Of a stretch of DNA of 39,677 bases, positions 10,013 to 37,531 are shown piece after piece. A model generated the notes under the pieces. The model saw nothing but the letters and a program-made list of their open reading frames with translations. It did not search any database and was not told the origin of the DNA. A program made the position numbers and the translations under genes. Position 1 is the first letter of the stretch. The number at the start of each line of letters is the position of its first letter. Source of the stretch: a virus; the IMG/VR virus record IMGVR_UViG_3300028196_000030, positions 1 through 39,677 of that record; one strand, given 5' to 3'.

Positions 10013-13000
10013 ATGGCTGAACAAACATTTAAATCACCAGGTTTTTTTGAAAGAGAAATAGATGTATCTCAGAGAGGTGCTTCTAAATCATTCAACGTTC
10101 CTGGTGGCATCATAGGAATATCAGAATCAGGGCCTGCTTTTGTTCCTACAACAGTTACATCAATTCAAGAGTTTGAAAATGTTTTTGGTAATATTAGACC
10201 TGAACATTTTGGCGCAATAGCAGCAAATGAATTTTTAAAAAGACGACCGGCAATTACTTTTGTCAGAACATTAGGTGCAGGAGTTATACAACAAAGTGGC
10301 GATCTAAATAATTTTAAGAATTACGGAACAGTATCTGGCGCAGGATTTTCTTTAAGCGGCTCTGAAGCGTCTGCAGCGCAGCAAGCAGGTGCAGCTGATA
10401 AAAGACATCAAGGCTGCGTCCAATTTATTGCTGCAAAACATGAAATAAATGAAAATGAATCACATTTATATCCATTTGTATCACAAAATCAATCAGTTGG
10501 TACTTCAACTTCTTATTTCATAAGAGGTATGGTTTTTTTAGCATCAGGTGCTAAAATGGAAATATTAGATCATGACAGTGGGTATAATTTAACAGGATCA
10601 GCTACAGATGAAGCACGAATAAGTAGTTATACCGGACCGATAAAAAAACAAGGTATTTTTAAAATAGTAATTTCATCATCTTTAGGTTCCACTTTTTCAA
10701 ATGATGAATCAGAAGCAGGAATTAAAATATATACTGCATCTTTAAATCCAGATTCTGATTACTATATTAACAAGGTTTTAAACACCAATTATCAAAAATT
10801 TGATGATAGACAACATTTACTATATTCTGATTTTGTTATTGAAAATGATTTAGCCAAAGTCGAATATAGTGCAGGAACACCAACAGTTGCTGTATTGTCA
10901 GGAACAGCAGGTTCTTCGACATCTGGAGACACTACCAAACATTACAGAGAACTATTCGGATCTTTTAATACGAGATACGCAAACGCAAAAACAACAAAGT
11001 TTATTTCGCAGCCCTTTGGAAATAAAGAGCACGACCTATTTCATTTTGAAACTTTGTCTGATGGCGAAAAATCAAATAAATTATTTTCTATTTCGATTGC
11101 TAATTTAAAAAAATCAACGAGCAATAAAAACCCATACGGAACTTTTACAGTTCAAGTTAGAAAATATAACGACAACGATGATCAACCAGTTATTTATGAA
11201 CAGTTTAATAATTGTAATTTAAATCCTAACAGTGAAGATTTTGTTGGTAGTTTAATTGGTGATGCAAAAAAATATTATAATTTTAACACAGTTTTAGAAT
11301 CTGAACGCAGTTTATTAACAGCAGGAACGTATCCTAATAAATCTAAATACATAAGAATAGTAATTAATCAAAGTGTATTAGATAAAAAAATACCAGCTGA
11401 CTGTTTACCATTTGGTTTTAAAGGTCTACCGTTAATTAAGACTTCTAATACACTCACTTCAACTGCAACTTCTATTCCAGGTGGAGAAAACACAATAAGA
11501 TTACATGCGTCAGGCACTCAATCTTCAAACTTTGCATATTCTATTTTACCACCTGTTCCTTTGACTTACAAAGTAACACAAGGCAATGGTAACGTAAATC
11601 CTAATTTTGCAGGCCACGCCAGTCAAGATGAAAACGTCAATCCTTCAATTTATTGGGGAATTCAATCTGGCAGGTTAAGAAAAAATAAAAATTATGATGA
11701 AAATGGAACATCTAATCCATTACTTCAAACAAACAACAGGATACAAAATGAATCATCATTAATCGATGGTTATTCTAAGTTTTTAGGAATTCAAAAACTT
11801 GATGCACTATTAAGCGGTTCAGGTGCTGATGCTTTTAACAATAACAAGTTTACTCTTGCAAGAGTGGCTTTAAATAATCAATCAGCTTCGACAGACAGTT
11901 TGTTAGGCGCAATTTCAAGAGAACTCACAGGTTCTGCAGATGATCATATGGTGAGTGCTGCTTATATCAGGAGCGCTTCTTTGGATCTTCCGAATATGAC
12001 AATTAACGATGGGGTTGCAAATCCAAGAAGATTAACTCTCGCATCTTTATTATCAGGCGATGCCAATACATTTAATAAATTTTCTAAATATGCTAAGTTT
12101 ACTAATATATTTTTTGGAGGTTTCGATGGTTTAAATATATTAGATAAAGACTCCAGGTTAATGAATGACAAAGCTTCTTCTTTAGAAGTCGGTGGAAAAG
12201 CAGCTGGAGGCGTTATTAGTTATCAAAACTTGCATGCAGGTGCTTCTCCTGGGGTAGGAACAAGAAACAATATTGTGTCTTCTTATTTAGAAGCTGCTAA
12301 TATTTTAACTTTAGAGGGTTTAACTAACATTAACATATTAATAGTTCCCGGGATTAAAGAGCCTTTAGTTACAAATAAGATTAGTGATAAAGTAAGAGAT
12401 AATTCAAAAATATTATATTTGATGGATATTCCTGCTTATGATAAAAATTCTAATCGTTTGTTTGAAGATTCAACAGTAAAAATTAATGTTAATAAAACAG
12501 TAGATAAATTCGCTGGAAGAAGTATTGATAACAGCTATGTTGCATCGTATTTCCCAGACACTTATATCAACACAGATGCAGTTGGCAAAATAACAAAAGT
12601 ACCTGCTTCGGTATCTGCATTTCAAGCTTTAGGATATAATGACAGTGTTAGTTTTCCATGGTTCGCTCCCGCAGGATTTAATCGCGGTGCATTAAGTAAC
12701 GTTGTAAATACAGTCTGCAAATTAAATACTGCAGATAGAGACAATCTTTATGAGGCAAGAATTAATCCAATTGCACAATTTGCGACAGGTAAAATCGTAA
12801 TATTTGGACAAAAAACTCTTCAGATGGATAAATCAGCATTAGATCGTGTTAATGTTAGAAGAATGGTTTTAGAAGTAAAAAGAATTGTTTCACGGATAGC
12901 AGGTGATTTTGTTTTTGAACAAAATACACAAATACTTAAAAATAGATTTATTTCTCAAGTAACACCTAAATTAGCATTAGTTCAATCTGAAAAAGGTATT

Positions 13001-13153
13001 GATCGATTTCAAGTAATCATGGATAAAACAAATAACACAACTTTAGACGAAGAAAACAATAGACTTAACGGTACAATAGTTCTGGTGCCTACAAGGGCAA
13101 TTGAATTTATTGCCATAGATTTTATTATAACAAATTCAGGCGTAATTTTCTAA
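10013..13153 (+). CDS. 18: Tail sheath protein A (gp18 type)
   Basis: This encodes 1046 residues, much longer than T4 gp18 (659). The ATG follows AAGGAG by six bases. The N terminus (FKSPGFFEREIDVSQR, then VPGGIIGISESGPAFVPTTV) is the classic sheath opening: a SPG-(V/F)-x-x-x-E-x-D strand followed by G-(I/V)-x-G-x-x-x-x-GPA. The C-terminal core has FPWFAPAGFNRGAL, DRDNLYEARINPI, FGQKTL and SALDRVNVRRMVLEVKR, the most conserved part of all contractile sheaths. About residues 100-700 contain large Ser/Thr/Asn-rich inserted domains likely exposed on the outer tail surface. It polymerises around the gp19 tube and contracts at infection. A second, related sheath gene follows directly. Confidence 0.93.
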   Translation: MAEQTFKSPGFFEREIDVSQRGASKSFNVPGGIIGISESGPAFVPTTVTSIQEFENVFGNIRPEHFGAIAANEFLKRRPAITFVRTLGAGVIQQSGDLNNFKNYGTVSGAGFSLSGSEASAAQQAGAADKRHQGCVQFIAAKHEINENESHLYPFVSQNQSVGTSTSYFIRGMVFLASGAKMEILDHDSGYNLTGSATDEARISSYTGPIKKQGIFKIVISSSLGSTFSNDESEAGIKIYTASLNPDSDYYINKVLNTNYQKFDDRQHLLYSDFVIENDLAKVEYSAGTPTVAVLSGTAGSSTSGDTTKHYRELFGSFNTRYANAKTTKFISQPFGNKEHDLFHFETLSDGEKSNKLFSISIANLKKSTSNKNPYGTFTVQVRKYNDNDDQPVIYEQFNNCNLNPNSEDFVGSLIGDAKKYYNFNTVLESERSLLTAGTYPNKSKYIRIVINQSVLDKKIPADCLPFGFKGLPLIKTSNTLTSTATSIPGGENTIRLHASGTQSSNFAYSILPPVPLTYKVTQGNGNVNPNFAGHASQDENVNPSIYWGIQSGRLRKNKNYDENGTSNPLLQTNNRIQNESSLIDGYSKFLGIQKLDALLSGSGADAFNNNKFTLARVALNNQSASTDSLLGAISRELTGSADDHMVSAAYIRSASLDLPNMTINDGVANPRRLTLASLLSGDANTFNKFSKYAKFTNIFFGGFDGLNILDKDSRLMNDKASSLEVGGKAAGGVISYQNLHAGASPGVGTRNNIVSSYLEAANILTLEGLTNINILIVPGIKEPLVTNKISDKVRDNSKILYLMDIPAYDKNSNRLFEDSTVKINVNKTVDKFAGRSIDNSYVASYFPDTYINTDAVGKITKVPASVSAFQALGYNDSVSFPWFAPAGFNRGALSNVVNTVCKLNTADRDNLYEARINPIAQFATGKIVIFGQKTLQMDKSALDRVNVRRMVLEVKRIVSRIAGDFVFEQNTQILKNRFISQVTPKLALVQSEKGIDRFQVIMDKTNNTTLDEENNRLNGTIVLVPTRAIEFIAIDFIITNSGVIF

Positions 13154-13185: not shown

Positions 13186-16100
13186 ATGGCAGAAATAGTA
13201 TACAAAAGCCCAGGAGTTTTCACAAGAGAGGTAGATAGTTCTCAACCTAGTCAAACTTCACAGGCATTATCAACTCCGGCAGGAGTAATAGGCACGGCAA
13301 ACCTTGGACCGGCTTATATTCCCGTTATTGTTAACTCTTTAACAGAGTTAACATCAGTTTTTGGTGGGATAACAGGCGATAGTTTTGGAAAATTAGCAGC
13401 AGCTGAATATTTTAAAAACGGCGGCGGATCAATTGCTTATGTAAGGGTACTCGGAGCTGGCGACGGTAAAGCTAGAAATGCAAACGGAACTGTTACAAAC
13501 GCTGGTTACTTTGTAGGTAATGAAAATATCCAATCAGGTGGTAATGTAGGCAAAAATATTTATGCCAATACAAACGCCGGCGCAGGTGAAACTTTAGGAA
13601 GATCTTACTTTCTTGGCTGTTTTATGTCTGAATCTAATGGATCAACAATATTTTCTGATGCTGGATTACAAAGTACAACACAAACAGCGGCTTCATTTAC
13701 AGCAACAGCTGCAGCTGGTTTGGTAATAAACGATGATACTGACGCAGGTAATTTAGATACACAAACAATTACGTTTACTTTACCAACAATAGGTAATATA
13801 GTAATTACAATTATTGATTCTACTGGGACACCTTCAGCCTCAGGTGCAAACATACAGGTTAAAAATACTGATGACTCTGAAACTTTGGTTGATAAATTAG
13901 TTAAAGCGATAAATGGTGAAACAGACGCAAATATTGATTTCGGAGATCATACAGGTATTCCAGGTGTAACAGCTACAAAAAATTCTATATCAGACCCACA
14001 ATTTGGTATTAATTTGTTATATCAATCACCAGGAACAATTGGAAATAATGTAAGTTTTCAATCTAATTCAGTATTAGCTTTAGGGTCAGGTGAGTCTGTT
14101 AATACAGCAATAAGCTTAGCAGGTGGTGTAGGTGGATCTATTCCAATTCTTCGTGGAGTTCTTCTTGCGCCAAGCGGCGTTGCTTTATCTTTAAGTAGCT
14201 CTTTTAATAATAATTTAAGTCAACACCCGGTATTGACAACAACAGCTACTACAGATGGCTCGACTCCAAGATATGGTCAAATGACTGGTTCTATCGAGTT
14301 AGCTGGGTCTGGCACTTTTGTTTTAATATTAAACGGATTTAAAGGATCAACAGAAAGACCAAGTAATGTTATAACTGCTTCTTTTGAATCAAATTCAGAC
14401 TTTTACTTCGGAAAGGAAGGTGTATTTAATATAGACCCATTAAAAATAGAAGAACACGGTCATTATTTATATTCACATTATTATTTACATCCTCAATATG
14501 CGACCATAACGGGGTCTGGTAATATCCCAGCAGGATTTAACACAACATATGAAAATACAGCATTTATTCTTACCAGTTCTATATCAAGAGGCGCAACTTC
14601 TGGATTTGGAAACACACCAGATTACGAAGATTGGCAAGATAGATTTTCATACGCAGAATCTCCTTATATTGTTTCTCAAGATGGTCAAGACTTATTTAAA
14701 TTAGTTTCACGCTCTCCTGGTAAAGAGTTTTCAACAAGCTATAAGTTTTCAATATCAAGTATCAACCCGACAGAAAAAACTTTTTCTTTAGGCATTAGAC
14801 ATGCTGACGATATTGATGGAGACATTGGTTATGCAGAGCCTTTATACACAAACATTTCTTTAGACCCTAATAGTCGAAGTTATATTTCAAGAATTATTGG
14901 TGATATTAATACTAAGTTTGATTTTGACAACGATAATAATTCACAAAAAATAACTATTGAAGGCTCACACTATGGAAAGTCTAAATTAGTAAGAGTTGTT
15001 GCATCAAGTGATTTAGAAAATGGCAACATTGATTCAAATGCAGTCCCATTTGGTTTTAGAGGGCCAATGCATACAGTTACTTCGGGTACAATGATGGCGT
15101 CTTATGCGGGAAATTATGGAAATTCTGACGTTCTTAAAAGATTAATTGAACCGCCTATTCCGTATAGAGAACACTTAAATGAAGGAGCAGGTACATCAAA
15201 AGCGGCCTTTACTAAATATTACTGGGGATATCAATCAGAAGCAAAAACAGAAGTTACTTTACCTAATCAATTCAATAACTCAGTAATCAATTCAAATACA
15301 GCATATTTAAAACATTATCCGACGCATAGAACTGACACGACAAACTTTGCTGTTAAAGAAAACACCGGTGCTGCTGACGTTAATGGTTCAATTTTAGATG
15401 TTGATCTTTTTAATAAAAGTTTATTTTCATTATCAAACATCAAAGTAAGAACCGGTTCAAACGAAAAAGCAGATCCAGCACAATGGTCATCAGCTTCATA
15501 TGTCAGAGGCGGTGGTATAACAGAAGTTGCTGCTAATAAAACTCGTGCATTGGCAGTTAATGATTTAGCTTTTAGTAATAATAGTGAATATGTTAAGTTT
15601 ACTTGTTTGTTTCAAGGTGGCTTTGACGGTGTTGATAAATTCAATAAAGATAAATCGGAATTTCTTAATGATGCTGTCAAAAGAGAATATGATAATGTTG
15701 CTGATCAAGGTGGCGTTAAAAGTGGTCCTACAATTAAAGCTTATAGGAAAGCTTTAGATATTTTAGGTTCAAAGTCAGACGTTGATATTCAACTTTTGGC
15801 AAACCCAGGAATTAGACACTCATCAGTCACAGATTATGGGATTAGTGTTGCTGAGAATAGATTTGATACTTTATACATTATGGATATTGAGCAAAGAGAT
15901 AGCTTAGATAATGTTATAACAGGATCAACTACAGAATTAAACAAACCAAGTATTAGATATACAACCAGTGGTTTTGTTGGAAGAAGTTTAAATACTTCAT
16001 TTGCTGCAGCATATTTTCCTGACGTTAACATATCATTTAGAAATGTTTCACGTCAAGATGAATTAAAGCAAGTTCCTCCTACTGTTGCGGTATTAGGAGC

Positions 16101-16629
16101 ATATGCTAATAATGACACAATTGGTGAATCTTGGTTTGCTCCAGCTGGTAATACTCGAGGCGTATTGAGTAGTGCAATAACAACTGAGTTAGGAACAATC
16201 AACAGGACTAATTTAGATACTTTGTATTCTGCAGATATCAATCCCATTAATGATGTTGTTAATGTAGGTATAACAATACAAGGACAAAAAACATTACTTA
16301 AGAATCTTTCTGCTTTAGATAGAGTTAATGTGAGAAGATTATTAATAACTGTTAGAAGAGCAGTTAGAAATATTGCAAATACTTTAATATTTGAACCAAA
16401 TCGTCCTGAAACTTTAAATAAATTTAGATCTATGGTTAACCCTATTTTAGAAAGCCTAAAAAGTCAGCAAGGGGTTGCAAGATATAAAGTTGTAATTGAT
16501 GAAACAACTACGACACAAGCTGACGTTGAGAATAATACACTTAGAGGTAAGATTTACCTTCAACCTGTAAGAGTAGCAGAATTTATAGCACTCGACTTTA
16601 ACATTACAAACAATGGCATCATTGATTAA
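13186..16629 (+). CDS. 18: Tail sheath protein B (gp18 type, paralogue)
   Basis: This encodes 1147 residues; GGAG lies eight bases before the ATG. It has the same two conserved ends as sheath A: YKSPGVFTREVDSSQ with AGVIGTANLGPAYIPVIV at the N terminus, and WFAPAGNTRGVL, DTLYSADINPI, QGQKTL and SALDRVNVRRLLITVRR near the C terminus. The middles differ. Residues about 165-315 form an insertion of Thr/Ile/Asp-rich beta strands (DTQTITFTLPTIGNIVITII, then SETLVDKLVKAINGE and PGTIGNNVSFQS) that sheath A lacks at this point. Because the core helices and strands needed for polymerisation are intact in both, both are probably functional subunits rather than one decayed copy. The tube gene follows 12 bases after the stop. 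Confidence 0.93.
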   Translation: MAEIVYKSPGVFTREVDSSQPSQTSQALSTPAGVIGTANLGPAYIPVIVNSLTELTSVFGGITGDSFGKLAAAEYFKNGGGSIAYVRVLGAGDGKARNANGTVTNAGYFVGNENIQSGGNVGKNIYANTNAGAGETLGRSYFLGCFMSESNGSTIFSDAGLQSTTQTAASFTATAAAGLVINDDTDAGNLDTQTITFTLPTIGNIVITIIDSTGTPSASGANIQVKNTDDSETLVDKLVKAINGETDANIDFGDHTGIPGVTATKNSISDPQFGINLLYQSPGTIGNNVSFQSNSVLALGSGESVNTAISLAGGVGGSIPILRGVLLAPSGVALSLSSSFNNNLSQHPVLTTTATTDGSTPRYGQMTGSIELAGSGTFVLILNGFKGSTERPSNVITASFESNSDFYFGKEGVFNIDPLKIEEHGHYLYSHYYLHPQYATITGSGNIPAGFNTTYENTAFILTSSISRGATSGFGNTPDYEDWQDRFSYAESPYIVSQDGQDLFKLVSRSPGKEFSTSYKFSISSINPTEKTFSLGIRHADDIDGDIGYAEPLYTNISLDPNSRSYISRIIGDINTKFDFDNDNNSQKITIEGSHYGKSKLVRVVASSDLENGNIDSNAVPFGFRGPMHTVTSGTMMASYAGNYGNSDVLKRLIEPPIPYREHLNEGAGTSKAAFTKYYWGYQSEAKTEVTLPNQFNNSVINSNTAYLKHYPTHRTDTTNFAVKENTGAADVNGSILDVDLFNKSLFSLSNIKVRTGSNEKADPAQWSSASYVRGGGITEVAANKTRALAVNDLAFSNNSEYVKFTCLFQGGFDGVDKFNKDKSEFLNDAVKREYDNVADQGGVKSGPTIKAYRKALDILGSKSDVDIQLLANPGIRHSSVTDYGISVAENRFDTLYIMDIEQRDSLDNVITGSTTELNKPSIRYTTSGFVGRSLNTSFAAAYFPDVNISFRNVSRQDELKQVPPTVAVLGAYANNDTIGESWFAPAGNTRGVLSSAITTELGTINRTNLDTLYSADINPINDVVNVGITIQGQKTLLKNLSALDRVNVRRLLITVRRAVRNIANTLIFEPNRPETLNKFRSMVNPILESLKSQQGVARYKVVIDETTTTQADVENNTLRGKIYLQPVRVAEFIALDFNITNNGIID

Positions 16630-23870: not shown

Positions 23871-24173
23871 ATGGCCATTTCAAGATACTCTTTTGTCAAC
23901 AAGTATAGGTTTGCTAATAACGTTTTTTATGGGACTGCTGAATATAATGTTAACATTAGCAAAGCAATATCAAATGGAACGTTAGAATGTCATACATATG
24001 TAATGGTGAAAGGTGATCGATTAGATCACCTTTCACATAAATATTATAATGATGCAAATTATTGGTGGGTGATCGCAGCAGCCAGTAGAATTGGGTGGGG
24101 ATTACAGGTTCCGCCAGGTACATTAATTTTAATCCCTAAGAGTTTGTCCAATGCGCTAGGAGTTGCACAATGA
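23871..24173 (+). CDS. LysM-domain baseplate protein (gp53 / tail protein X-like)
   Basis: This encodes 100 residues; AAAGGA precedes the ATG. Residues about 40-95 form a LysM fold: YVMVKGDRLDHLSHKYYND, then YWWVIAAASRI and VPPGTLILIPKS. This pattern of V-x-x-G-D-x-L-x-x-(I/L)-A/S-x-x-Y-x-D with a final G-x-x-(I/L)-x-(I/V)-P is typical of small tail proteins (P2 gpX) and of the LysM-like part of T4 gp53, which links baseplate wedges. T4 gp53 is 196 residues, so this is a short form. The middle of the gene encodes a long perfect RNA hairpin. The stop overlaps the ATG of the next gene as ATGA. Confidence 0.82.
   Translation: MAISRYSFVNKYRFANNVFYGTAEYNVNISKAISNGTLECHTYVMVKGDRLDHLSHKYYNDANYWWVIAAASRIGWGLQVPPGTLILIPKSLSNALGVAQ
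24006..24036 (+). repeat. Perfect 13-bp inverted repeat inside the LysM gene
   Basis: GTGAAAGGTGATC (24006-24018) and GATCACCTTTCAC (24024-24036) are exactly complementary around the loop GATTA. No T tract follows. It encodes VKGDRLDHLSH, the LysM motif itself. Confidence 0.9.
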
Positions 24174-27100
24174 TGATGGATAGTTTTTATAATTCTAATC
24201 CTAATTTAAAATTAAAAATATTAAGAAATTTAATACTAAAATTTAGCGGTTATATAGCAGGTGCTGAAATAGATAATACTCTTTCAATATTTGGTGGTTC
24301 GGAAATACAAAATCAAATAAAGCTATTAACTGACAATAAAATTTTCGAATCTTTAGTTGAAAAATTTAAAAATCAAAATAATATAACAAGTATAGAAAAA
24401 CAAATAATTGAAAAATTTACAAGCGGTCAATACGGTTCTTTTTGTGCACATGACTTATTATGCAATCCTAGTATATACACAGATATAGCTTTAAACTCAC
24501 TAACAGAAGATAATTATAATGTTTTAACCAAGGGTGGAATGATAGATGCATTGTCAGTTATAGCAGGTGATATTTCGCATGCTGCTGTTTTCCCTGGTGT
24601 TAGATTAAGTGATCGAACAGAGAAGGCACCAAAATATTATTCTATGAAAGACGTTTGTGCATTTTTCGAATATCAAAATAACAGCAATAAAAAGTTAACT
24701 CAGGATATATTCAATCAACAAGATCCACATATTAAAACTGCAATCGTGGAAGATTTTAACAATGCAGAACAAGGTATTGAAGATTACATAAAATCTAAAC
24801 AGGTTTTAAAAAAAGGGAAAGAATCAGAGTTACCTGACATTGATTTATTTGTGAATCCTGAAGAAAATACAAATTATGTATACAAATTAGACAAAGGATT
24901 GTGGTATACAAGAGACAAAACTGCAAATTCAAAAAAGTGGATTCCTTTAGATTCACCTGACTATAAAAAATCAATAGAAAATCTTAATGAGTCTTATAAA
25001 AAACAGCTAAAAGAGAATAATAAAAAAACACCTACAATTAAAAAAGAAAAAGAAATTGTTAAAAAAGAAATACACACTGTACAAAGTTTTGCGGGTTTTC
25101 TGAAAAACAACCCGCAACGTTTGCCTTTTTACGCAAAAACTGGTAATAAAAAAACTATTCCAGCTGCAGTTAATAATCCTTTAAACGATTTGCCTCAAAA
25201 TCAAACTTTGCCTAATTTAACTTCGTTTATATTTAGAAAACCTATACATAATAGAGGTTCCAGAAATGATAATTATTTATCAGTTTTTTTTGGGGCAGTT
25301 TCTCCATTAGAATTGTCTAGATGCACTCCTTATTTAAGTTTAACTTTTTATACTAAAAAAACAAAAGGACAAGATATAAACAGAATGGATTCAACAGGTT
25401 ATATGAGATTTGATGATGGTGTCAACGGCTTATTTTCAAAAACACCTGATGTTGAAAAATTATTCGAAGGTAAAATTAACAGTTTTGTAGGTGAAAAAGA
25501 AACTTTAGATAGCGTCAATTACATGGATATGTTTTTATCACCTCAGACCATGGTAAATGCAAATATTAACAATAATAGTACTAGAAACTTTAATGATTTT
25601 TTAGACGTTAGCAATACCAATAATGAATTAATTGAAGATTTAAACAATGTTTTAGATCCTTTTGCTCCAATGCTTACTCTTAAAAGTTTTAACGCCACAA
25701 TAAATAGTGGCGGTGACTATATGATAACTAATAGAAGGGCAAAATTGTCTATGACATTACATGACAGGAGCCGACTCAATGAAATTGCTCCTTTTGTTTC
25801 ATTAAACCAAGTAGCTAAAACTTTAGTAAAGATAGAACACGGTTGGTCTCACCCTGATGGAAATTTAGTTACTTCAAATAACGATATTGGTAAATTTTTA
25901 AATAGCCTGAGAGAATCTCACGTTTATATGTTAACTGCTTCTGACTTTTCCTTTAGCGGTAATCAAATAGATATTAATATGACTTTAGACTTTTGGGGTG
26001 CCTCTGATTTTAAATCAATTCATATAGCTGAAGGTAATTATAAAGACGCAACAAAACTGCAGTCAAAAATAATTGATGTAATATCAGACATGGAAAGCAA
26101 AAATATTGTTAAGTCAGAAAAAGGCAATCACCAACTTCAACAAGGCGTCCCGTCTAAAGCAAAAAAACCTGAGTCAGATAAAATAATATTAGATGAAAGA
26201 AATAGACGCGTCATGAAACATGTAAAAATTATAAGAAATTCTGTAACTGCAGCGAAAATATTATTACCTACAAATGTTGTTATGAAATTAATGAAAAAGA
26301 TAGAAAAATACAGTTCAAAGAACGGAAATGATAACACTACTTACTGGCATGCAGAAATTCTTATTGAATATTTTCTTGCATTAGCAAATGAAAATTTAGT
26401 TGACTTAGGTTCAAATAAATCTGGGTTAAATGAAAAAGATCCTGCTGCATTAATTGATTTATTAGATACAGATAATTCTAATTTTATAAATAGTTTTAAA
26501 GAATTTGAAATTAAATCAAAGAAAAATTTAGCAGAAAGATTGATATCTAAAATTGAGTCAATGACAGGCATAGAAGTCACAAAACAAAAAGATGGTTCAC
26601 TTAAAAGAAGCTTTAAAAAAGAACATGTAGACCCTTTTACGTCGACTCTTTGTAACGTATATTACGATCCGAATAATACGAAAGGTTTGTATAATGATTA
26701 TCCTGAAGGTCACATTTCTTTAGGTAAGGTAATATCTAATTTAATAGCTCTGCCCATGTCAGCTACAAACAATTATGATGAAGTTCAAATTTTATTCTAT
26801 CCGATAAACAACGCAGCAGCCGGCGCCAGAAAATATACAACTGCTTCATTACCTGTTGAAATAAAAACTCTTAAAAGACAAATTTATAAAGTAATTGAAG
26901 GTGCAGGAGACTTAACTCCGAGAGGCGTGTTCGATATTATTTCTAATTATTTTCAAGATAACAATTTAAGCATTTATAAACTTTCAAAAGATTCTTTTGG
27001 AATTGATAAGAATGAAAAAGAAAAAGAAATTAGAGCTGAACCTGACTTTAATTCAAATGTAAAAGCAAAATTTGAATCCCTTAATCCTGATTACGATTAT

Positions 27101-28405
27101 TCAACGCTCAAAATCGCAAAAGCAGAAGAAAAAATTAATGGTCCAGACAAGAAAAAAATAAAAAAAGAAAATGAAAAAATAAAAAAAGACTATAACAGAA
27201 AACAAAACGCAGCTGAAAGATCATACATTCAAAGCAGAATAGCTAGCATTCGAACAAAAACTTTAAAAGACGATTTGAATGATATATACAATTCCGATAA
27301 TTTAGGCCCGGGCAACTTAACATATTTTAAAAAGCCTGTAATTCATATGGAATTAGAAGTAATGCCTAAAATTGTACCTGCGCCTTCCCAAGCAGCAAAT
27401 GCCGGAAACATTACTAAAAAAGCAAAAACAGCATTTAAATCAACTTTTATTCTTGATGAAGAAGACATTACAAAAATAAAAGGAATAGATAACACAAAAA
27501 AAATACTTAAAATCCATGTATATGATGAAAATGCAACTTCAAAACCTGCTGAAGCTATGTTTATGGATGGTTTAGTTGAACCAGAATCATTTTTTCCTAT
27601 AGCAGGAATCCTAAATCAGTATGAAGATAAAGAAGAATTAATAACCTTAACAGGCGTGAAAAATTTTAGAGATGCTTCTAGTGCATATATTGAAAAAATG
27701 AGTATTAGAGAAATAAAACAATTTGTTTCCCGGGCATTTCCAACTATAAGATATGGAAGTCAACAAGGTGTTGTTAAATCTGTTAATGTAAGCAGTAATA
27801 CATCTGACGAAATTATCAATTCAAGGTTAATGAACGCATTTAAAAAAGATGAAGAATCAAATAATAGTAATATTACAAAAACAGCAGAAAATACCGGTGA
27901 AGTTATAGAAGAATTTATTATTCCTACATCAATTGACATGGCCATATACGGGTGTCCTTTTATTACAATGGGTCTTAATGTCTTCGTTGATATGCAAACA
28001 GGAACAGATATTGATAATGTGTATATGGTAGGTGATGTATCACACAGCATATCTGCAGGAGAATATTCAACTACCATTAGTTTGTATTTGCCGCAAATAG
28101 GCACAGGAAGAGATATGAGATCCCGGCTGATAGCAGCAGCAGAAAATATTGATAAAGAAAAATTGAATGCGGCAGCCGCTGAAGTTAAGCAAAAATTAGA
28201 AGAAGAAAAAGTGCCTGTTTCAACAGCAGACGCAGATGCGCAACAAACGCTTAGTAGGTATAATCAAAACGCCAAAAAAGAAAAAGTTAATAAAGTAAAA
28301 TCTAGCAGCAAGAAAAAGCCAGTCAAGTCTAATAATACACTAGGCAACGTTCACGGTTCGTTTGCAAATAAAAATATTGCAAGTATCGATTCAACCGATT
28401 ATTAA
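24170..28405 (+). CDS. Very large baseplate hub candidate (gp27 / gpD-like C terminus)
   Basis: This encodes 1411 residues. Recognisable parts are a region near residue 500 (DPFAPMLTLKSFNATINSGG, RRAKLSMTLHDRSRLNEIAP, VKIEHGWSHPDGN) that looks like the beta-barrel domain of hub proteins, and a C-terminal segment (IYGCPFITMGLNVFVDMQTG, then DNVYMVGDVSHSISAGEYST and ISLYLPQIGTG) with the G-x-Y-x-(V/I)-x-x-(V/I)-x-H-x-(I/V)-x-x-G-x-(Y/F) ending of gp27/gpD-type hubs. Long Lys/Glu-rich linkers separate the domains (residues 260-300, 950-1030, and the last 80). T4 gp27 is 391 residues. The hub would link tube and spike. It begins as ATGA overlap with the LysM gene. Spike or lysozyme motifs are not evident. 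Confidence 0.6.
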   Translation: MMMDSFYNSNPNLKLKILRNLILKFSGYIAGAEIDNTLSIFGGSEIQNQIKLLTDNKIFESLVEKFKNQNNITSIEKQIIEKFTSGQYGSFCAHDLLCNPSIYTDIALNSLTEDNYNVLTKGGMIDALSVIAGDISHAAVFPGVRLSDRTEKAPKYYSMKDVCAFFEYQNNSNKKLTQDIFNQQDPHIKTAIVEDFNNAEQGIEDYIKSKQVLKKGKESELPDIDLFVNPEENTNYVYKLDKGLWYTRDKTANSKKWIPLDSPDYKKSIENLNESYKKQLKENNKKTPTIKKEKEIVKKEIHTVQSFAGFLKNNPQRLPFYAKTGNKKTIPAAVNNPLNDLPQNQTLPNLTSFIFRKPIHNRGSRNDNYLSVFFGAVSPLELSRCTPYLSLTFYTKKTKGQDINRMDSTGYMRFDDGVNGLFSKTPDVEKLFEGKINSFVGEKETLDSVNYMDMFLSPQTMVNANINNNSTRNFNDFLDVSNTNNELIEDLNNVLDPFAPMLTLKSFNATINSGGDYMITNRRAKLSMTLHDRSRLNEIAPFVSLNQVAKTLVKIEHGWSHPDGNLVTSNNDIGKFLNSLRESHVYMLTASDFSFSGNQIDINMTLDFWGASDFKSIHIAEGNYKDATKLQSKIIDVISDMESKNIVKSEKGNHQLQQGVPSKAKKPESDKIILDERNRRVMKHVKIIRNSVTAAKILLPTNVVMKLMKKIEKYSSKNGNDNTTYWHAEILIEYFLALANENLVDLGSNKSGLNEKDPAALIDLLDTDNSNFINSFKEFEIKSKKNLAERLISKIESMTGIEVTKQKDGSLKRSFKKEHVDPFTSTLCNVYYDPNNTKGLYNDYPEGHISLGKVISNLIALPMSATNNYDEVQILFYPINNAAAGARKYTTASLPVEIKTLKRQIYKVIEGAGDLTPRGVFDIISNYFQDNNLSIYKLSKDSFGIDKNEKEKEIRAEPDFNSNVKAKFESLNPDYDYSTLKIAKAEEKINGPDKKKIKKENEKIKKDYNRKQNAAERSYIQSRIASIRTKTLKDDLNDIYNSDNLGPGNLTYFKKPVIHMELEVMPKIVPAPSQAANAGNITKKAKTAFKSTFILDEEDITKIKGIDNTKKILKIHVYDENATSKPAEAMFMDGLVEPESFFPIAGILNQYEDKEELITLTGVKNFRDASSAYIEKMSIREIKQFVSRAFPTIRYGSQQGVVKSVNVSSNTSDEIINSRLMNAFKKDEESNNSNITKTAENTGEVIEEFIIPTSIDMAIYGCPFITMGLNVFVDMQTGTDIDNVYMVGDVSHSISAGEYSTTISLYLPQIGTGRDMRSRLIAAAENIDKEKLNAAAAEVKQKLEEEKVPVSTADADAQQTLSRYNQNAKKEKVNKVKSSSKKKPVKSNNTLGNVHGSFANKNIASIDSTDY

Positions 28406-28440
28406 TAATGTATAAATATTATTTTTAATGTATTATTAAT
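28401..28440 (+). promoter_or_regulatory. T4 late promoter inside a hairpin, before the polymerase-like gene
   Basis: TATAAATA (28411-28418) is an exact T4 late (gp55-dependent) -10 sequence. It lies in the loop of a perfect inverted repeat, ATTAATAAT (28401-28409) with ATTATTAAT (28432-28440), flanked by one more A-T pair and an inner G-T pair. The 3' arm ends two bases before the ATG at 28443. RNA started at this promoter (about 28424) would lack the 5' arm. Confidence 0.7.
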
Positions 28441-28442
28441 AT

Positions 28443-29456
28443 ATGAATATAATAGTAGAAAAAGAATATAGCGTTTTAAATAAGCAATACCTGATTAATC
28501 TAAATAGTCACAAAACAAAGAATGTTAATCAGTTAAATATTGTTTGCGATGCGCTACAAATTGAAAAGATTAAGTCAATAAAAGAATATTTTTCTTTTTA
28601 CTCAGAAATAAATTGTAATGAAAATTATAGTATGTTTATGTCTTACAAAAACAAAAAAGACTATATGGACTACTTTAAAAATAAAATTAAAACAGTTCAA
28701 AAATATAATAATGATTATTTTGAAAAAGTCTACATACATAGAAAAGATTTATTATCTAAGTTAAAACCTGTTGATAATTGTGATATGCCAGTATATTCTC
28801 ATAGTAGCGCAACAGGAAGATCTAAAATAATAAAAGGTACAAATTTTATGACAATGAAAAAAGAAAAAAGAAAAAAACTGTCATATAACAACAATCAAAT
28901 GTTTGAAATAGATTTTAATTCTTGTGAACCTTATTTTTATTTACTGGCAAATGATAAAATAGATTCAAGCGTAGTAGACGTATATTCAGAAATTCAAGAC
29001 AAACTTAATATCGCAAATAAAACAAGAAAGCAACTTAAAAATGCAATAATATCTGTACTTTATGGAGCTCAATTTAATACCGTAAAAAGATTATCTAATT
29101 TTTCTAAGGTTGAGTATTCAAACCTTTTAAATTTTTTAGATATTACAAATTTTCTAGCTAAACTAAAAACATCAATTTATAACGATGGCTGCATATACAA
29201 CTTTTACAATCGCCCAGTTATCGTCACCAGCGAAAGATTGGCTGTTAATTATTGGGTTCAATCATCTGTAGCTGATTTTTGTTATTTGTCTTTTGGTAGA
29301 TTTATTAATGACAATAAAATAAATTTTCATGCAATTATTCATGATGCTATTATTTGCTCCAGTAATAAAAACATTGCAAATCAAATTAAAAATATAAAAT
29401 ATTTACAATGTCCTGTTAGTAATTTTAAAATTCCTGTTTCGTTTCTTACTTTCTAA
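28443..29456 (+). CDS. Miniature family A DNA polymerase-like protein
   Basis: This encodes 337 residues. All main motifs of family A polymerase fingers and palm are visible: SSATGRSKI (T-G-R at 124-126), motif A FEIDFNSCEPYF (metal-binding D157), motif B TRKQLKNAIISVLYG (R195-x3-K199-x7-Y207-G208, the standard O-helix spacing), N269-x3-Q273-x3-A-D, and motif C IIHDAII (H300-D301-A302, where most have HDE). The 3'-5' exonuclease and most of the thumb are missing; Pol I large fragments exceed 600 residues and T7 polymerase is 704. The first 100 residues are Asn/Lys-rich and unrecognised. No ribosome site precedes the ATG. It lies between baseplate and gp32 genes behind a late promoter, so it is not placed like a replicative polymerase. 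Activity with HDA is uncertain. Confidence 0.8.
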   Translation: MNIIVEKEYSVLNKQYLINLNSHKTKNVNQLNIVCDALQIEKIKSIKEYFSFYSEINCNENYSMFMSYKNKKDYMDYFKNKIKTVQKYNNDYFEKVYIHRKDLLSKLKPVDNCDMPVYSHSSATGRSKIIKGTNFMTMKKEKRKKLSYNNNQMFEIDFNSCEPYFYLLANDKIDSSVVDVYSEIQDKLNIANKTRKQLKNAIISVLYGAQFNTVKRLSNFSKVEYSNLLNFLDITNFLAKLKTSIYNDGCIYNFYNRPVIVTSERLAVNYWVQSSVADFCYLSFGRFINDNKINFHAIIHDAIICSSNKNIANQIKNIKYLQCPVSNFKIPVSFLTF

Positions 29457-29469
29457 CATAATTACTTTT

Positions 29470-30897
29470 ATGAAAAATCAAAAAATTAAAGAACTTAGAC
29501 TTAGTGTTGGAACATCACCTGCAAATATGCCTTTTGTTAATAAAGGAAATCCTATAGGCACAGTTTTCAATACAAATGCAGATGACGTATTTTCAAAAAG
29601 ATATTCTTTGGTTAATGAAGAAGAAGAATCTGAAGATGAAGGAGAAGAAATGCCAGAAAGTATATTAGAATATAGAGTTAGCATTAATGGCAAATACCAG
29701 TTGCTTGAAACATTAGAAAGGATTGATGAAGGCTTTTTCCAAAAAATAGCTGATTTAGCAAAAGCAGTTCCTGGTTTAGATCAAATCGTAGGCGATATCG
29801 AACTGTATATGCAAGCAGGTAAAGTAAAAGAAGCGTTTGATGGTTTAGAAAACATTGTGAGTAGTTTAAAACACACAGCAGGATTAACAGCATTATCAAT
29901 AATAGGCACTGTAGAACAATATTCGAGCTTATTACAAAATTTTATATTAGCTGATGAAAAAGATAAAAGTTTATTAAAGGAAGGCGTTGAAAAAATATTA
30001 GAAGTTTTAAAACAAATGACAATAACGGCAGCACAGACATTTGATTCTGTTGTTGCATTGCCTACATTCGCTGCAGCCGGCGTTGGTGGAATTGCAGGCG
30101 AAGCTATTACAAATGTTGTTACTTCATTAGGCACCTTTTTAAGAGATCAGCCTGTTGAACAATTTGTGTTTAAAACAATAACAAATAGAGAAGGAATAAT
30201 TTCAAAAATAGTTGAATTGTTTGAAAAAGTCATGACTTTAGTAACAGGCAAAGGCATGTTAGCAGATTCTTTAGGGTATATTGTTGAAAAAATATCCACA
30301 ACAGGAGGCGAAATAGTTAGATTATTTCTTAACAAACCTTTTGAATTATTAAGAAGACTAGGTGATCTTTATAAAGCTGCTATAGGAGAACCAATAGAAA
30401 ATATCGAATCGGCAAATGTTATTGATATCGAACAAATGAATATTGATAATAATAACAAAGCAGCTGAAAACACAATCTCAGCTGTATATGAATCTAAAAA
30501 ATATTCTTTGTTATCTTTAATTGAATCTTTTAATGAAGAAATTACTTCTGAAAAAAAAGGATTCACAGACAAATACGATGATCACAATAAATTAAAGGGA
30601 AAGCAAAAAAAAGGATTACCTGATCACCTTCAAAAAGCAATCATTAATAGTAAAAAAAATGAAGTAAATAATGACGAAGAAGTTGATGAAGAAGATTCTT
30701 TTGAAGAAATAGATTTAGAAGAATTTTCAGGCGCCGGCGCAGCTGGCGGATATGCTTTACCTTTAGGCGCTTCAAATAAATCAGCTTCTAAACAAAAAGA
30801 TCATCATAAAATTTTAGAAAAACAAATAAATGAGCAACGAGAAAGAATAGCATTACTTCAAGCTTTTCATCAAAAAACAACAAATAAATTAAAATAA
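29470..30897 (+). CDS. Unrecognised helical protein with internal tag-like motif
   Basis: This encodes 475 residues; there is no clear ribosome site before the ATG. An acidic segment spans about 48-64. An amphipathic helical domain at about 85-310 has several hydrophobic stretches (VVALPTFAAAGVGGIAGEAI at its centre) that might insert in a membrane. At 344-356 KYSLLSLIESFNEE closely resembles the N-terminal tags of the head-block proteins (compare DLSILIESYLNEE). A Lys-rich segment KGKQKKGLPDHLQKAIINSK follows, then an acidic stretch, then EEFSGAGAAGGYALPLGAS at about 417-435. I recall that Gly/Ala/Pro signature from marine phage virion-associated proteins. A C-terminal coiled coil ends the chain. 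A protease-processed virion protein is plausible; no enzyme motif is seen. Confidence 0.65.
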   Translation: MKNQKIKELRLSVGTSPANMPFVNKGNPIGTVFNTNADDVFSKRYSLVNEEEESEDEGEEMPESILEYRVSINGKYQLLETLERIDEGFFQKIADLAKAVPGLDQIVGDIELYMQAGKVKEAFDGLENIVSSLKHTAGLTALSIIGTVEQYSSLLQNFILADEKDKSLLKEGVEKILEVLKQMTITAAQTFDSVVALPTFAAAGVGGIAGEAITNVVTSLGTFLRDQPVEQFVFKTITNREGIISKIVELFEKVMTLVTGKGMLADSLGYIVEKISTTGGEIVRLFLNKPFELLRRLGDLYKAAIGEPIENIESANVIDIEQMNIDNNNKAAENTISAVYESKKYSLLSLIESFNEEITSEKKGFTDKYDDHNKLKGKQKKGLPDHLQKAIINSKKNEVNNDEEVDEEDSFEEIDLEEFSGAGAAGGYALPLGASNKSASKQKDHHKILEKQINEQRERIALLQAFHQKTTNKLK

Positions 30898-30999: not shown

Positions 31000-31788
31000 A
31001 TGGCTATTGATTTTGAAGCTATCAAGCGCAAATTAGAACGACTAAGCGGTAATAACCGATCACAAAATGTAATGTGGAAACCACAACCAGACGAAGAATC
31101 TCAAATTCGTCTTATATCATTTCCTGATAATGACGGCCAACCTTTTAAAGAGTTGATGTTCTATTACAATATTCCTGGACAACGTGGACTTCTTGCACCA
31201 TCTCAGTTTGGTGAAAGAGACCCGGTTCAAGAATTGATTAATAAACTTCGTGATGAAGGTACAAAAGAAAGCTATGAAATGGCAAAGAAGTTGTATCCTA
31301 AAATGCGAGTTTACGCTGCAGTAATTGTAAGAGGTGAAGAAGACAAAGGGGTTCAACTGTGGGGGTTTGGAAAACTTGTTTATCAAAAGCTTCTTGGTAT
31401 TATGCTTGATGAAGACTATGGTGATATCACTGATCCTAAATCAGGTCGTGACATCAAAGTGGTTTGTTCAAAGCCACCAGGACAACAATGGGCAAAAACA
31501 GAAATTCTTCCTCGTGGACGATCAACAAAACTTACAGATGATTCGAAACAGGCAAAAGAATGGATGACAAATATACCTGATACAAAAGGCATATTTAAAA
31601 CAAAGTCTTACGATGAACTTAGTAAAATTGTAAATGACTGGCTCAATGGTGGCGATGAAGAGGATGAAGGTACTGAAAAGTTTGGAGGTTCTTCAAAACC
31701 TGATGATACACCAAAATCTGGTGGCGGAGGTGGTGGTGAAAAATCTTACAATGATTTGGACGATGCATTTGCAGATTTAATGTCATAA
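31000..31788 (+). CDS. 32: Single-stranded DNA-binding protein gp32
   Basis: This encodes 262 residues, against 301 in T4; CGGAGA precedes the ATG. The N-terminal basic domain (FEAIKRKLERLSGNNRS) fits the cooperativity region, and NVMWKPQPDEESQIRLI begins the OB-fold core. Other core segments are FPDNDGQPFKELMFYYNIPG and VQLWGFGKLVYQKLLGIM. The C terminus is Gly/Ser/Asp-rich and ends YNDLDDAFADLMS, the acidic tail that contacts partner proteins. Only one Cys is present, so the zinc site of T4 gp32 (one His and three Cys) is absent, as I recall for some marine relatives. It has its own promoter and A/U-rich leader and is followed by a long hairpin terminator. Confidence 0.93.
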   Translation: MAIDFEAIKRKLERLSGNNRSQNVMWKPQPDEESQIRLISFPDNDGQPFKELMFYYNIPGQRGLLAPSQFGERDPVQELINKLRDEGTKESYEMAKKLYPKMRVYAAVIVRGEEDKGVQLWGFGKLVYQKLLGIMLDEDYGDITDPKSGRDIKVVCSKPPGQQWAKTEILPRGRSTKLTDDSKQAKEWMTNIPDTKGIFKTKSYDELSKIVNDWLNGGDEEDEGTEKFGGSSKPDDTPKSGGGGGGEKSYNDLDDAFADLMS

Positions 31789-34039: not shown

Positions 34040-35194
34040 ATGTCAGGTGATAATTTTACTAAAGACTTAATTAAGTCGCTAAATAAAGAACAAGGATCAA
34101 GAGTTGCATACAATCTTTCTGTAGACGAAAGTCCAACGCATGTTAATCGCTGGATTAGTACAGGAAGTCAAATGTTAGATTACATATGCGCAAATCAAAA
34201 AGGAGGCGGGTTACCTGAAGGTAGAATTGTGGAAATATTTGGACCACCTTCAATTGGTAAATCACACATAGCAACCCAGATTGCAAGAAGCACACAACAG
34301 ATGGGAGGAATTATTGTATATATAGACACGGAAAATGCAACATCTGTTGATAATCTAAGAATGCTTGGTGTAGATGTTGCAACGCGATTTGTATACGTTG
34401 ATACACATTGTACAGAAGAAGTGCTTTCCATAGCAGAAAAAACTATTTTAAAGGCAAAAGCTATGGACAAGAATGTACCTGTGACCGTAATATGGGACTC
34501 AGTTGCAGCTACTTCTCCAAAAGCTGAATTGTTAGGTGATTATGACAAAGAAACAATCGGCCTTCAGGCCCGCGTGATATCTAAAGGCATGAGAAAAATA
34601 ACAGGTGTAATAGGTCAAACTAATAGTTTGTTTGTAATACTAAATCAAATTAGAACTAAAGTAGGTGTTATGTATGGCGACCCAACAACCACACCTGGCG
34701 GGAAAGCAATCCCATTTCATTCTTCAATAAGAATTAAGTTAGGTGCGGGCCAACAAATCAAAGACGGGGATGATGTAATTGGTATTAATGTATCAGCAAA
34801 AACAATTAAAAATAAAGTAGCTCCACCATTCCGCGTTGCTAAGTTTCAAATACATTTTGGAAAAGGAATTGTTGAGCATGAAGAGTTATTTGATTTGTTA
34901 AGAAAACATGGTGAAGAGATAATTAATAACAAGTCAATTAAGGTCGCAGGCAGTGGTCAATGGAAAAATTTCCAAGTTGTTTGTTGTGAGTCAGGCGAAG
35001 TCCTTATTGAGAAAAAATTTAGAAAAACGTCTTTCAATGAGTTAATGAAAGATCCTGATTATAAGCCTTACATCGATCAACTGGTAGAAAAAGCAATGGT
35101 AAAAGTTATGACATCAAATGAATCTGTTGACATAGACACTGAATCTTTAGTAGAGTTAGAAGCACTGCAACAGGAAATGTTTAATGGCGAATGA
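34040..35194 (+). CDS. uvsX: UvsX/RecA-like recombinase
   Basis: This encodes 384 residues, against 391 in T4 UvsX. AAGGAG lies six bases before the ATG. Walker A is GPPSIGKS at 68-75, Walker B is VTVIWDSVAA with D153, and a RecA-type ETIGLQARVISKGMRKI and LNQIR segment follow. The TTTPGGKAIPFHSSIRIKL block near 215-235 is the L2/ATP-cap region typical of RecA and UvsX. It forms filaments on gp32-coated DNA and carries out strand exchange for recombination-dependent replication and repair. The 3' end overlaps the next gene by 11 bases. Its promoter matches that of gene 32, so the two partner proteins are probably co-expressed. Confidence 0.95.
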   Translation: MSGDNFTKDLIKSLNKEQGSRVAYNLSVDESPTHVNRWISTGSQMLDYICANQKGGGLPEGRIVEIFGPPSIGKSHIATQIARSTQQMGGIIVYIDTENATSVDNLRMLGVDVATRFVYVDTHCTEEVLSIAEKTILKAKAMDKNVPVTVIWDSVAATSPKAELLGDYDKETIGLQARVISKGMRKITGVIGQTNSLFVILNQIRTKVGVMYGDPTTTPGGKAIPFHSSIRIKLGAGQQIKDGDDVIGINVSAKTIKNKVAPPFRVAKFQIHFGKGIVEHEELFDLLRKHGEEIINNKSIKVAGSGQWKNFQVVCCESGEVLIEKKFRKTSFNELMKDPDYKPYIDQLVEKAMVKVMTSNESVDIDTESLVELEALQQEMFNGE

Positions 35195-36142: not shown

Positions 36143-37531
36143 ATGAACATGTCCCCCAACCATGTTGAAAGCTATTTTTCTAAATACGGCCGCCCGTTTC
36201 AAGAAAAGATATTTCAAGCAATGCTAACAGACTCAAATTGGGCTGCCCAAATGATAGAAGTCATGACCCCGGAATACTTTGAGTTAAAATACTTATCGTA
36301 TCTTTGCGATCGACATTTTGGCTTTTATCATAAATACAAGAATTTTCCTACATTACAATTGCTAGCGTCTATTATAAGAGATGAATTATCTTCTGGTGAT
36401 GATGTTATTTTAAGAGAACAAGTTGTTGAATTTCTTTCAAGAGTTAAACATGCGCCCAATCAAGGCGATTTAGAGTACGTAAAAGAAAAAACTCTTGATT
36501 TCTGCAAAAAACAAGTGTTAAAACAAGCTTTAGAAGACTGTGTTAAAGCAATTACAGCAGAAAATTACGATTCAGTCCTTAGTATTATGAAAGATGCTGT
36601 TTCAAAAGGTACACCTGCAACTATTGGTCATGACTTTTTTGAAGATTACGAAGCTCGTTTTACACGATTACTCCGTGTATGCAGCCCTACCGGTCTTGAT
36701 CAATTAGACAAAAAAGAAGTATTGAATGGTGGTTTGGCTAAGGGTGAAATTGGAATTGTAATAGCACCTACTGGCGTTGGTAAATCTCATTGGCTAGTTC
36801 ACGTTGGAGCTGAAGCTCTTAAGCGCGGTAAAAATGTTTTACACTATACGTTCGAACTAACAGAAACTGCTGTAGGTGTTCGATATGACAGTCATCTTTG
36901 CGGAATTGATTCAACAAATGTGCCTGACAAAAAAGATGAAATTTTAACAAGATATGAAGAAAACGACTATGGTAGATTGATAATTAAAGAATACCCAACA
37001 GGCTCAGCGAGTATTATCACTATTAAGAATCATTTAGAAAAATTAGCAATGAAAGATTTCAAACCCGGTTTGATTGTAATTGACTATGCTGATATTATGC
37101 GATCAACTCGTCAATATGATTCTTTACGCCATGAGCTTAAATTAATATATGAAGAATTAAGAAATTTAGCTATGGAGTTAGGTATTCCAATTTGGACCGC
37201 TTCACAAGCAAATAGAGAAGCCTCTGATAAAGAAGTAGTAGGTTTAAGTAATATGTCTGAAGCTTATAGCAAGGCTATGGTAGCAGACGTTGTTATTTCA
37301 ATATCACGCAAACAATTAGAAAAAGCGACAGGAGCCGCACGCCTGTTTGTAGCAAAAAATAGAGCGGGTCAAGATGGATTACTTTTCCCAATCAGAATTG
37401 ATACAGCTAGGAGTCATTTTGAAATAATTGATGACCCTAATTCACTTTCTGTATTGGACATGGTAGAATCCTCAAACACAGGCACCAAAGACATGCTTAA
37501 GTCTAAGTGGAAAGAAATAACAGGAAAATAA
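36143..37531 (+). CDS. 41: Replicative DNA helicase gp41 (DnaB family)
   Basis: This encodes 462 residues, against 475 in T4 gp41. GAGGT precedes the ATG, and a second ATG two codons later is also possible. The N-terminal helical domain (about 1-150) is followed by the RecA-like motor: Walker A APTGVGKS at 208-215, Walker B LIVIDYADIM with D314, then IPIWTASQANREASDK (motif H3-like sensor) and VAKNRAGQDG (arginine-finger region). It unwinds DNA as a hexamer ahead of the fork and supports primase. It lies two bases after the rnh stop and 18 bases before the reductase gene, so replication and nucleotide supply are co-transcribed. Confidence 0.95.
   Translation: MNMSPNHVESYFSKYGRPFQEKIFQAMLTDSNWAAQMIEVMTPEYFELKYLSYLCDRHFGFYHKYKNFPTLQLLASIIRDELSSGDDVILREQVVEFLSRVKHAPNQGDLEYVKEKTLDFCKKQVLKQALEDCVKAITAENYDSVLSIMKDAVSKGTPATIGHDFFEDYEARFTRLLRVCSPTGLDQLDKKEVLNGGLAKGEIGIVIAPTGVGKSHWLVHVGAEALKRGKNVLHYTFELTETAVGVRYDSHLCGIDSTNVPDKKDEILTRYEENDYGRLIIKEYPTGSASIITIKNHLEKLAMKDFKPGLIVIDYADIMRSTRQYDSLRHELKLIYEELRNLAMELGIPIWTASQANREASDKEVVGLSNMSEAYSKAMVADVVISISRKQLEKATGAARLFVAKNRAGQDGLLFPIRIDTARSHFEIIDDPNSLSVLDMVESSNTGTKDMLKSKWKEITGK

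Follow-up and report, generated by a model that had tools for sequence, protein, structure and literature searches.

The locus and its conserved gene order

We analyzed the virus record IMGVR_UViG_3300028196_000030, a 39,677-base stretch from an uncultured marine phage, hereafter called the window. A sequence-only reading had pointed to a 337-residue open reading frame resembling a family A polymerase, and this frame is confirmed (Table 1). It follows a long gene of the tail/baseplate region, itself preceded by a baseplate wedge homologue, and leads into a run of replication and recombination genes. The earlier placement between baseplate and gp32 genes is imprecise: gp32 is not adjacent, as a 475-aa gene intervenes.

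Searches with the single protein gave no match among records of cultured phages and none among viral contigs, and relatives were subsequently reached through the neighboring UvsX gene. The scan via UvsX found a relative of the polymerase encoded in 42 loci besides the window; a second scan, with an alignment of those relatives, found 80 loci, part of them already known. The small polymerase belongs to a deeply conserved cassette together with gp32, UvsX, a Pol I-type 5' nuclease and DnaB. The order tail gene, polymerase, gp32, UvsX, 5' nuclease, DnaB is the same, on one strand, in about 95 loci. Among loci selected by UvsX, the polymerase is present in 44, and every one that has at least 5 kb of sequence before gp32 encodes it.

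Table 1. Features of the window around the small polymerase gene (Pol I numbering is that of E. coli; rows are those of the alignment of relatives)
Feature	Position	Strand	Evidence or remarks
1411-aa gene, tail/baseplate region	24170-28405	+	conserved neighbor; no PHROG match
TATAAATA, earlier read as T4 late promoter, unsupported as such	28411-28418	+	chance frequency, not conserved
Small family A DNA polymerase gene, divPolA1-like, 337 aa	28443-29456	+	ORF, AlphaFold, structural matches, relatives
TGR motif, residues 124-126 (R126 = R668)	28812-28820	+	G125 and R126 in 93/93 covering rows
Motif A, EIDFNSCEP, D157 and E162 (= D705 and steric gate E710)	28905-28931	+	both in 94/94 covering rows
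Motif B, R195-K199-I203-Y207-G208 (= R754, K758, F762, Y766)	29025-29066	+	alignment of relatives
Motif C, H300-D301-A302 (= H881-D882-E883)	29340-29348	+	H and D in 97/97 covering rows
475-aa gene between polymerase and gp32	29470-30897	+	no Pfam or PHROG match
gp32-like single-strand DNA-binding protein	31000-31788	+	PF08804 E 1e-9; PHROG 1192 E 2e-16
UvsX/RecA-like recombinase	34040-35194	+	tblastn matches to annotated UvsX/RecA-like genes
5'-3' exonuclease (flap nuclease), Pol I N-domain family, 318 aa	35184-36140	+	PF02739 E 5e-26; PF01367 E 7e-10, just below cut-off
DnaB-like replicative helicase	36143-37531	+	PF03796 E 1e-22; PHROG 19 E 2e-71
Ribonucleotide reductase large subunit, runs off contig end	37550-39676

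Fold and active site

The predicted fold, the invariant catalytic residues and the substitution rates of the gene identify the 337-aa protein as a DNA polymerase of family A, with an active site that selection maintains. The window protein alone matches the Pfam family DNA_pol_A below the cut-off (E 4e-4); the cut-off is passed in 15 related records, with a best E of 3e-19. The AlphaFold model (pLDDT 93.6, pTM 0.90), together with its structural matches, has the palm-fingers-thumb fold of Pol I. Its best matches are T7 polymerase, Bst, Klentaq, pol nu and pol theta, at Z of about 20–21 and rmsd of about 4–6.5 Å over some 280–330 residues. The structural comparison with Pol I and T7 polymerase that had been proposed from the sequence thus yielded a polymerase palm, and the absence of one, named beforehand as grounds against a polymerase, did not occur. 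For the thumb, a reading of the model itself shows one long helix (residues 68–88). Between close pairs of polymerase genes, dN/dS is about 0.05–0.25, which corresponds to purifying selection.

The palm and fingers motifs reported earlier, in the right order and spacing, were all found: TGR, motif A, motif B and motif C. Conservation was counted over 99 distinct rows, with the number of covering rows varying by position (93–97). The equivalents of R668, D705, E710, K758, Y766, Q849, H881 and D882 are invariant wherever covered, and that of R754 has a single exception. In a survey of relatives, D157, R195 (with that one exception), K199 and D301 are kept, and no loss of a catalytic Asp was seen. 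The invariance of the steric-gate Glu argues for the use of dNTPs. In motif B, the Arg is present in 94 of 95 covering rows and the Lys and Tyr in 95/95, while position 203 (equivalent to F762) is occupied by Leu in 59 rows, Ile in 35 and Met in one. Leu or Ile at position 762 is atypical of bacterial Pol I. A Taq polymerase with Leu762 has been reported to be slower and more accurate (PMC9069017), which we regard as a lead only.

The sequence-only reading had also remarked that motif C reads HDA rather than HDE. It does, and HDA is the typical form in this family: across 97 covering rows the third residue is most often A (68 rows), followed by S (14), D (13), and E and G (one each). Other phage polymerases likewise depart from HDE, including those of FF47 (HDA), Lb338-1 (HDS) and CRP-212 (HDS) and the long immuto enzyme (HDQ). 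In the polymerase of phage Tt72 (HDS), the S616A mutant, which converts HDS to HDA, retains 76% activity, while mutation of either catalytic Asp leaves 4% (PMC9324360). As HDA and HDS occur in other phage polymerases and the Tt72 mutant remains active, HDA is no argument against activity, and with HDA also common among the relatives we rejected a dead or altered enzyme on this ground.

Loss of the exonuclease domain

The 337-aa protein has no 3'-5' exonuclease domain, as the earlier reading had stated. With TGR at residues 124–126, the roughly 125 residues ahead of it leave no room for a full exonuclease domain, and this N-terminal part is compact. No family A exonuclease domain scored over the cut-off in the 10 related records searched. 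A separate DnaQ-type exonuclease was considered as a general partner and dropped, being over the cut-off in only 2 of 10 records. These two are jumbo-size records (G017 and G018; loci L187 and L188), in which the match is to RNase_T. The full Pol I layout, in which a single chain carries the 5' nuclease, the exonuclease and the polymerase, is absent; the nuclease is a gene of its own.

Two known systems frame this architecture. T7 gp5 and other replicative phage family A polymerases share the palm and fingers motifs and give the best Z, but enzymes of this type are about 600–1050 aa long, carry an exonuclease domain and serve as the replicase. HoLaMa, a Klenow sub-fragment without the exonuclease domain, still extends DNA; like the window protein it is a polymerase domain lacking proofreading, although it is engineered, with eleven mutations, and not natural (PMC6457538).

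Sequence upstream of the gene

Before the gene, the sequence-only reading had recognized an exact T4 late promoter. The string itself, TATAAATA, is indeed there, but its promoter status did not hold: it occurs twice on the + strand of the window versus 4.2 expected, it stands at 1 of 32 gene starts versus 0.57 expected, and it is absent from the 80 bases upstream of the polymerase gene in all 38 relatives. We therefore rejected a T4 late promoter at this site. Late expression, and the end-filling and virion-linked roles proposed with it, had rested on this promoter and are unsupported, because it is neither above chance nor conserved.

A different element, TGTAAA, lies within 60 bases before the polymerase gene in 17 of 37 relatives versus 2.9 expected, an excess that is inflated by relatedness; the count reached at most 10 in 200 shuffles. 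Its location is mostly −34 or −35, and the window has TGTATAAA (28409) at a matching distance. The TGTAAA element is possibly a phage promoter. We also observed TGTAAA-16-TATAAT before UvsX in the window (33989).

Relation to divPolA1

A class of family A polymerases, divPolA1, was described by Yutin et al. 2024 in 14 phages, including immuto. Its members accompany a regular polymerase (family A, B or C) as a second enzyme; replication genes lie downstream, the catalytic residues are conserved, the thumb is truncated and the exonuclease is inactivated (PMC11348598). Our literature search found no experimental test of function and no biochemical data for any divPolA1 member. The window protein resembles divPolA1 (the immuto group and GOV bins) in the replication genes conserved downstream and in the loss of the exonuclease with the polymerase residues kept. 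The presence of an additional, regular polymerase is seen in relatives, the window contig ending 10 kb downstream.

At the same position, Flavobacterium phage immuto encodes a 441-aa “DNA polymerase family A” (gp001) ahead of SSB, recombinase, 5'-3' exonuclease and DnaB. Elsewhere its genome encodes a 777-aa enzyme of family A that does have an exonuclease domain; searches for polymerases of families B and C found none in this phage. In Microcystis phage Mel-JY01 the polymerase position is occupied by a 408-aa protein annotated as hypothetical, and the replicase is of family B, while LR756508 combines the small polymerase with family C and family B matches. In Mel-JY01, the gene in the 5' nuclease position (PP395634.1, 55792-56832; L191, 9985-11025) is annotated as DNA polymerase I.

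The named phages gave no match to an HMM made from every row of the hmmsearch alignment, and the A1 profile was used for them instead. Profile comparison of the window clade with the group of immuto, Mel-JY01 and LR756508 gave a probability of 95.5 (E 1.6e-8). In the tree, the marine clade forms one group (100/99) and the three named members another (100/100); the separation of both together from the full-length enzymes is modestly supported (95/73), on long branches. The named members have YDA in motif C, His at E710 and Tyr at R754, unlike the window clade, which marks the latter as a distinct subgroup. Size differs as well: the immuto member has 441 aa, whereas the window protein, at 337 aa, lacks room for a full-size exonuclease remnant. 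The window protein appears to fit divPolA1, and we file it as a shorter subgroup on direct comparison with the immuto, Mel-JY01 and LR756508 members only. New here are the short form and its approximately 95 mostly marine relatives, the class being already known from 14 phages. The divPolA2 proteins of barbaviruses are also second family A polymerases without an exonuclease, but by the description in the same paper they are set apart by a variable gene neighborhood and an unrelated N-terminal domain (PMC11348598).

Replicases of the related phages

From a T4-like background, the sequence-only reading had expected a family B replicase. For this clade the expectation failed: no DNA_pol_B was found in 28 related records, and family C (PF07733) was found in 15 of the 22 tested (7/10 and 8/12), in frames of about 1170–1210 aa and on contigs that include ones of 202, 237 and 284 kb. 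Where both enzymes are present and family C occupies a single frame (12 records), its gene is located about 20–41 kb downstream of the small polymerase, and several of the records without family C end short of this distance. In two records (G021 and G028), about 28 and 44 kb downstream are covered, which extends into this range or beyond it, and no other polymerase was found. In record G022 (L150), the family C matches extend over several frames (135889-154070), perhaps reflecting introns, inteins or frameshifts. The window stops 10 kb past the polymerase, and the replicase of its phage lies off the contig. In the passages found of a study on marine jumbo phages, PF07733 is mentioned in one group and no second polymerase appears (PMC9123017).

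That the small enzyme is a second polymerase beside a replicase, as suggested earlier, is supported by the relatives, which co-encode family C, A, B or B + C. The idea that it is the sole replicase of its phage was considered after the empty family B search and dropped once family C was found. Because it is conserved while a separate replicase differs (A, B or C) among relatives, the small polymerase is, on these comparisons, most likely an accessory enzyme retained while the main replicase changes family.

Proposed function and alternatives

The reading we prefer, with modest confidence, is that of a split Pol I, in which an active accessory family A polymerase and a separate 5' nuclease would serve gap filling and the maturation of Okazaki fragments or recombination intermediates. 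The earlier suggestion of gap repair is plausible and is the kind of function that we prefer; we infer that the enzyme is active, what its substrate is and that it acts together with the 5' nuclease. The small polymerase would be a natural counterpart of the Klenow fragment without its proofreading domain, and with the nuclease it would form a pair that covers both activities of bacterial Pol I. Bulk replication would fall to a different enzyme encoded elsewhere in the genome, of family C in the marine clade. On SSB-coated DNA, the polymerase would elongate a 3' end into a gap, the 5' nuclease would remove an RNA primer or flap, and ligase would seal the nick, thereby completing Okazaki fragments, repairing gaps and finishing UvsX recombination intermediates.

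Three observations favor a split Pol I: the pairing of the two genes in one cassette, the invariant dNTP-selecting Glu, and the presence of another replicase. Bacterial DNA polymerase I shares the fold, belongs with a 5' nuclease of the same family, here in the same cassette, and also works beside a family C replicase. It differs in that here the two are separate proteins, the 3'-5' exonuclease domain is missing, the N-terminal part is shortened, and A replaces E883 and I replaces F762. Several points count against the proposal. The polymerase and nuclease genes lie about 5.7 kb apart in the window, neither fused nor adjacent, and T4 RNase H works with the main replicase, so the 5' nuclease here could likewise work with the replicase alone. 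The two records in which no other polymerase was found also weigh against it, as do the atypical Leu/Ile at position 762 and the location of the window phage's replicase beyond the contig.

A less probable though serious alternative is a recombination or lesion-bypass polymerase, which would elongate the 3' end of the invading strand at UvsX D-loops, or copy past damage, and would be short, distributive and, for want of proofreading, error-prone. The constant place of the gene in the UvsX-gp32 cassette agrees with it, as do the missing exonuclease domain and the compact N-terminal part before TGR, but the Pol I-type 5' nuclease of the same cassette fits gap filling better. Somewhat more speculatively, a large marine phage clade might use the enzyme as the dedicated polymerase for recombination-primed replication that depends on UvsX. 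It would perhaps be what is left of an earlier replicase, retained as the bulk replicase switched among families A, B and C.

It is unlikely that the small polymerase is instead the main replicase or a co-replicase, for example of one strand, with the other polymerase secondary. Replication genes surround it, the neighborhoods of the “regular” polymerases vary among divPolA1 phages (PMC11348598), and G021 and G028 yielded no other polymerase; yet it is small and lacks proofreading, and a full-size replicase of three families is repeatedly present. It is highly improbable that the protein is a family A derivative working as an RNA polymerase or primase, a role suggested for divPolA2: T7-type RNA polymerases did arise from family A (PMC11348598) and an exonuclease domain is likewise lacking here, but the steric-gate Glu is present in 94/94 covering rows of the clade and the best structural matches are all DNA polymerases. 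Least credible of all is the late-expressed, virion-linked or DNA-end-filling enzyme proposed earlier, as the gene does come after tail genes but is tied to the replication cassette, and its supposed late promoter is at chance and not conserved.

A small polymerase without proofreading is kept in every scorable locus of these large phages while the main replicase changes family, and knowing its role would answer whether phages that replicate with a family C enzyme need a Pol I of their own.

Other observations on the window and its relatives

Upstream in the window, two very long tail-sheath-like genes (PHROG 23) stand in tandem, at 10013-13153 (1046 aa) and 13186-16629 (1147 aa). One related locus (L131, 9956-11025) has its small polymerase divided between two frames, perhaps through a sequencing error or a real break. 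Two other relatives (L099 and L100) lie on contigs binned to Rickettsiaceae and Flavobacteriales MAGs, which hints at hosts or at phage contigs in the bins.
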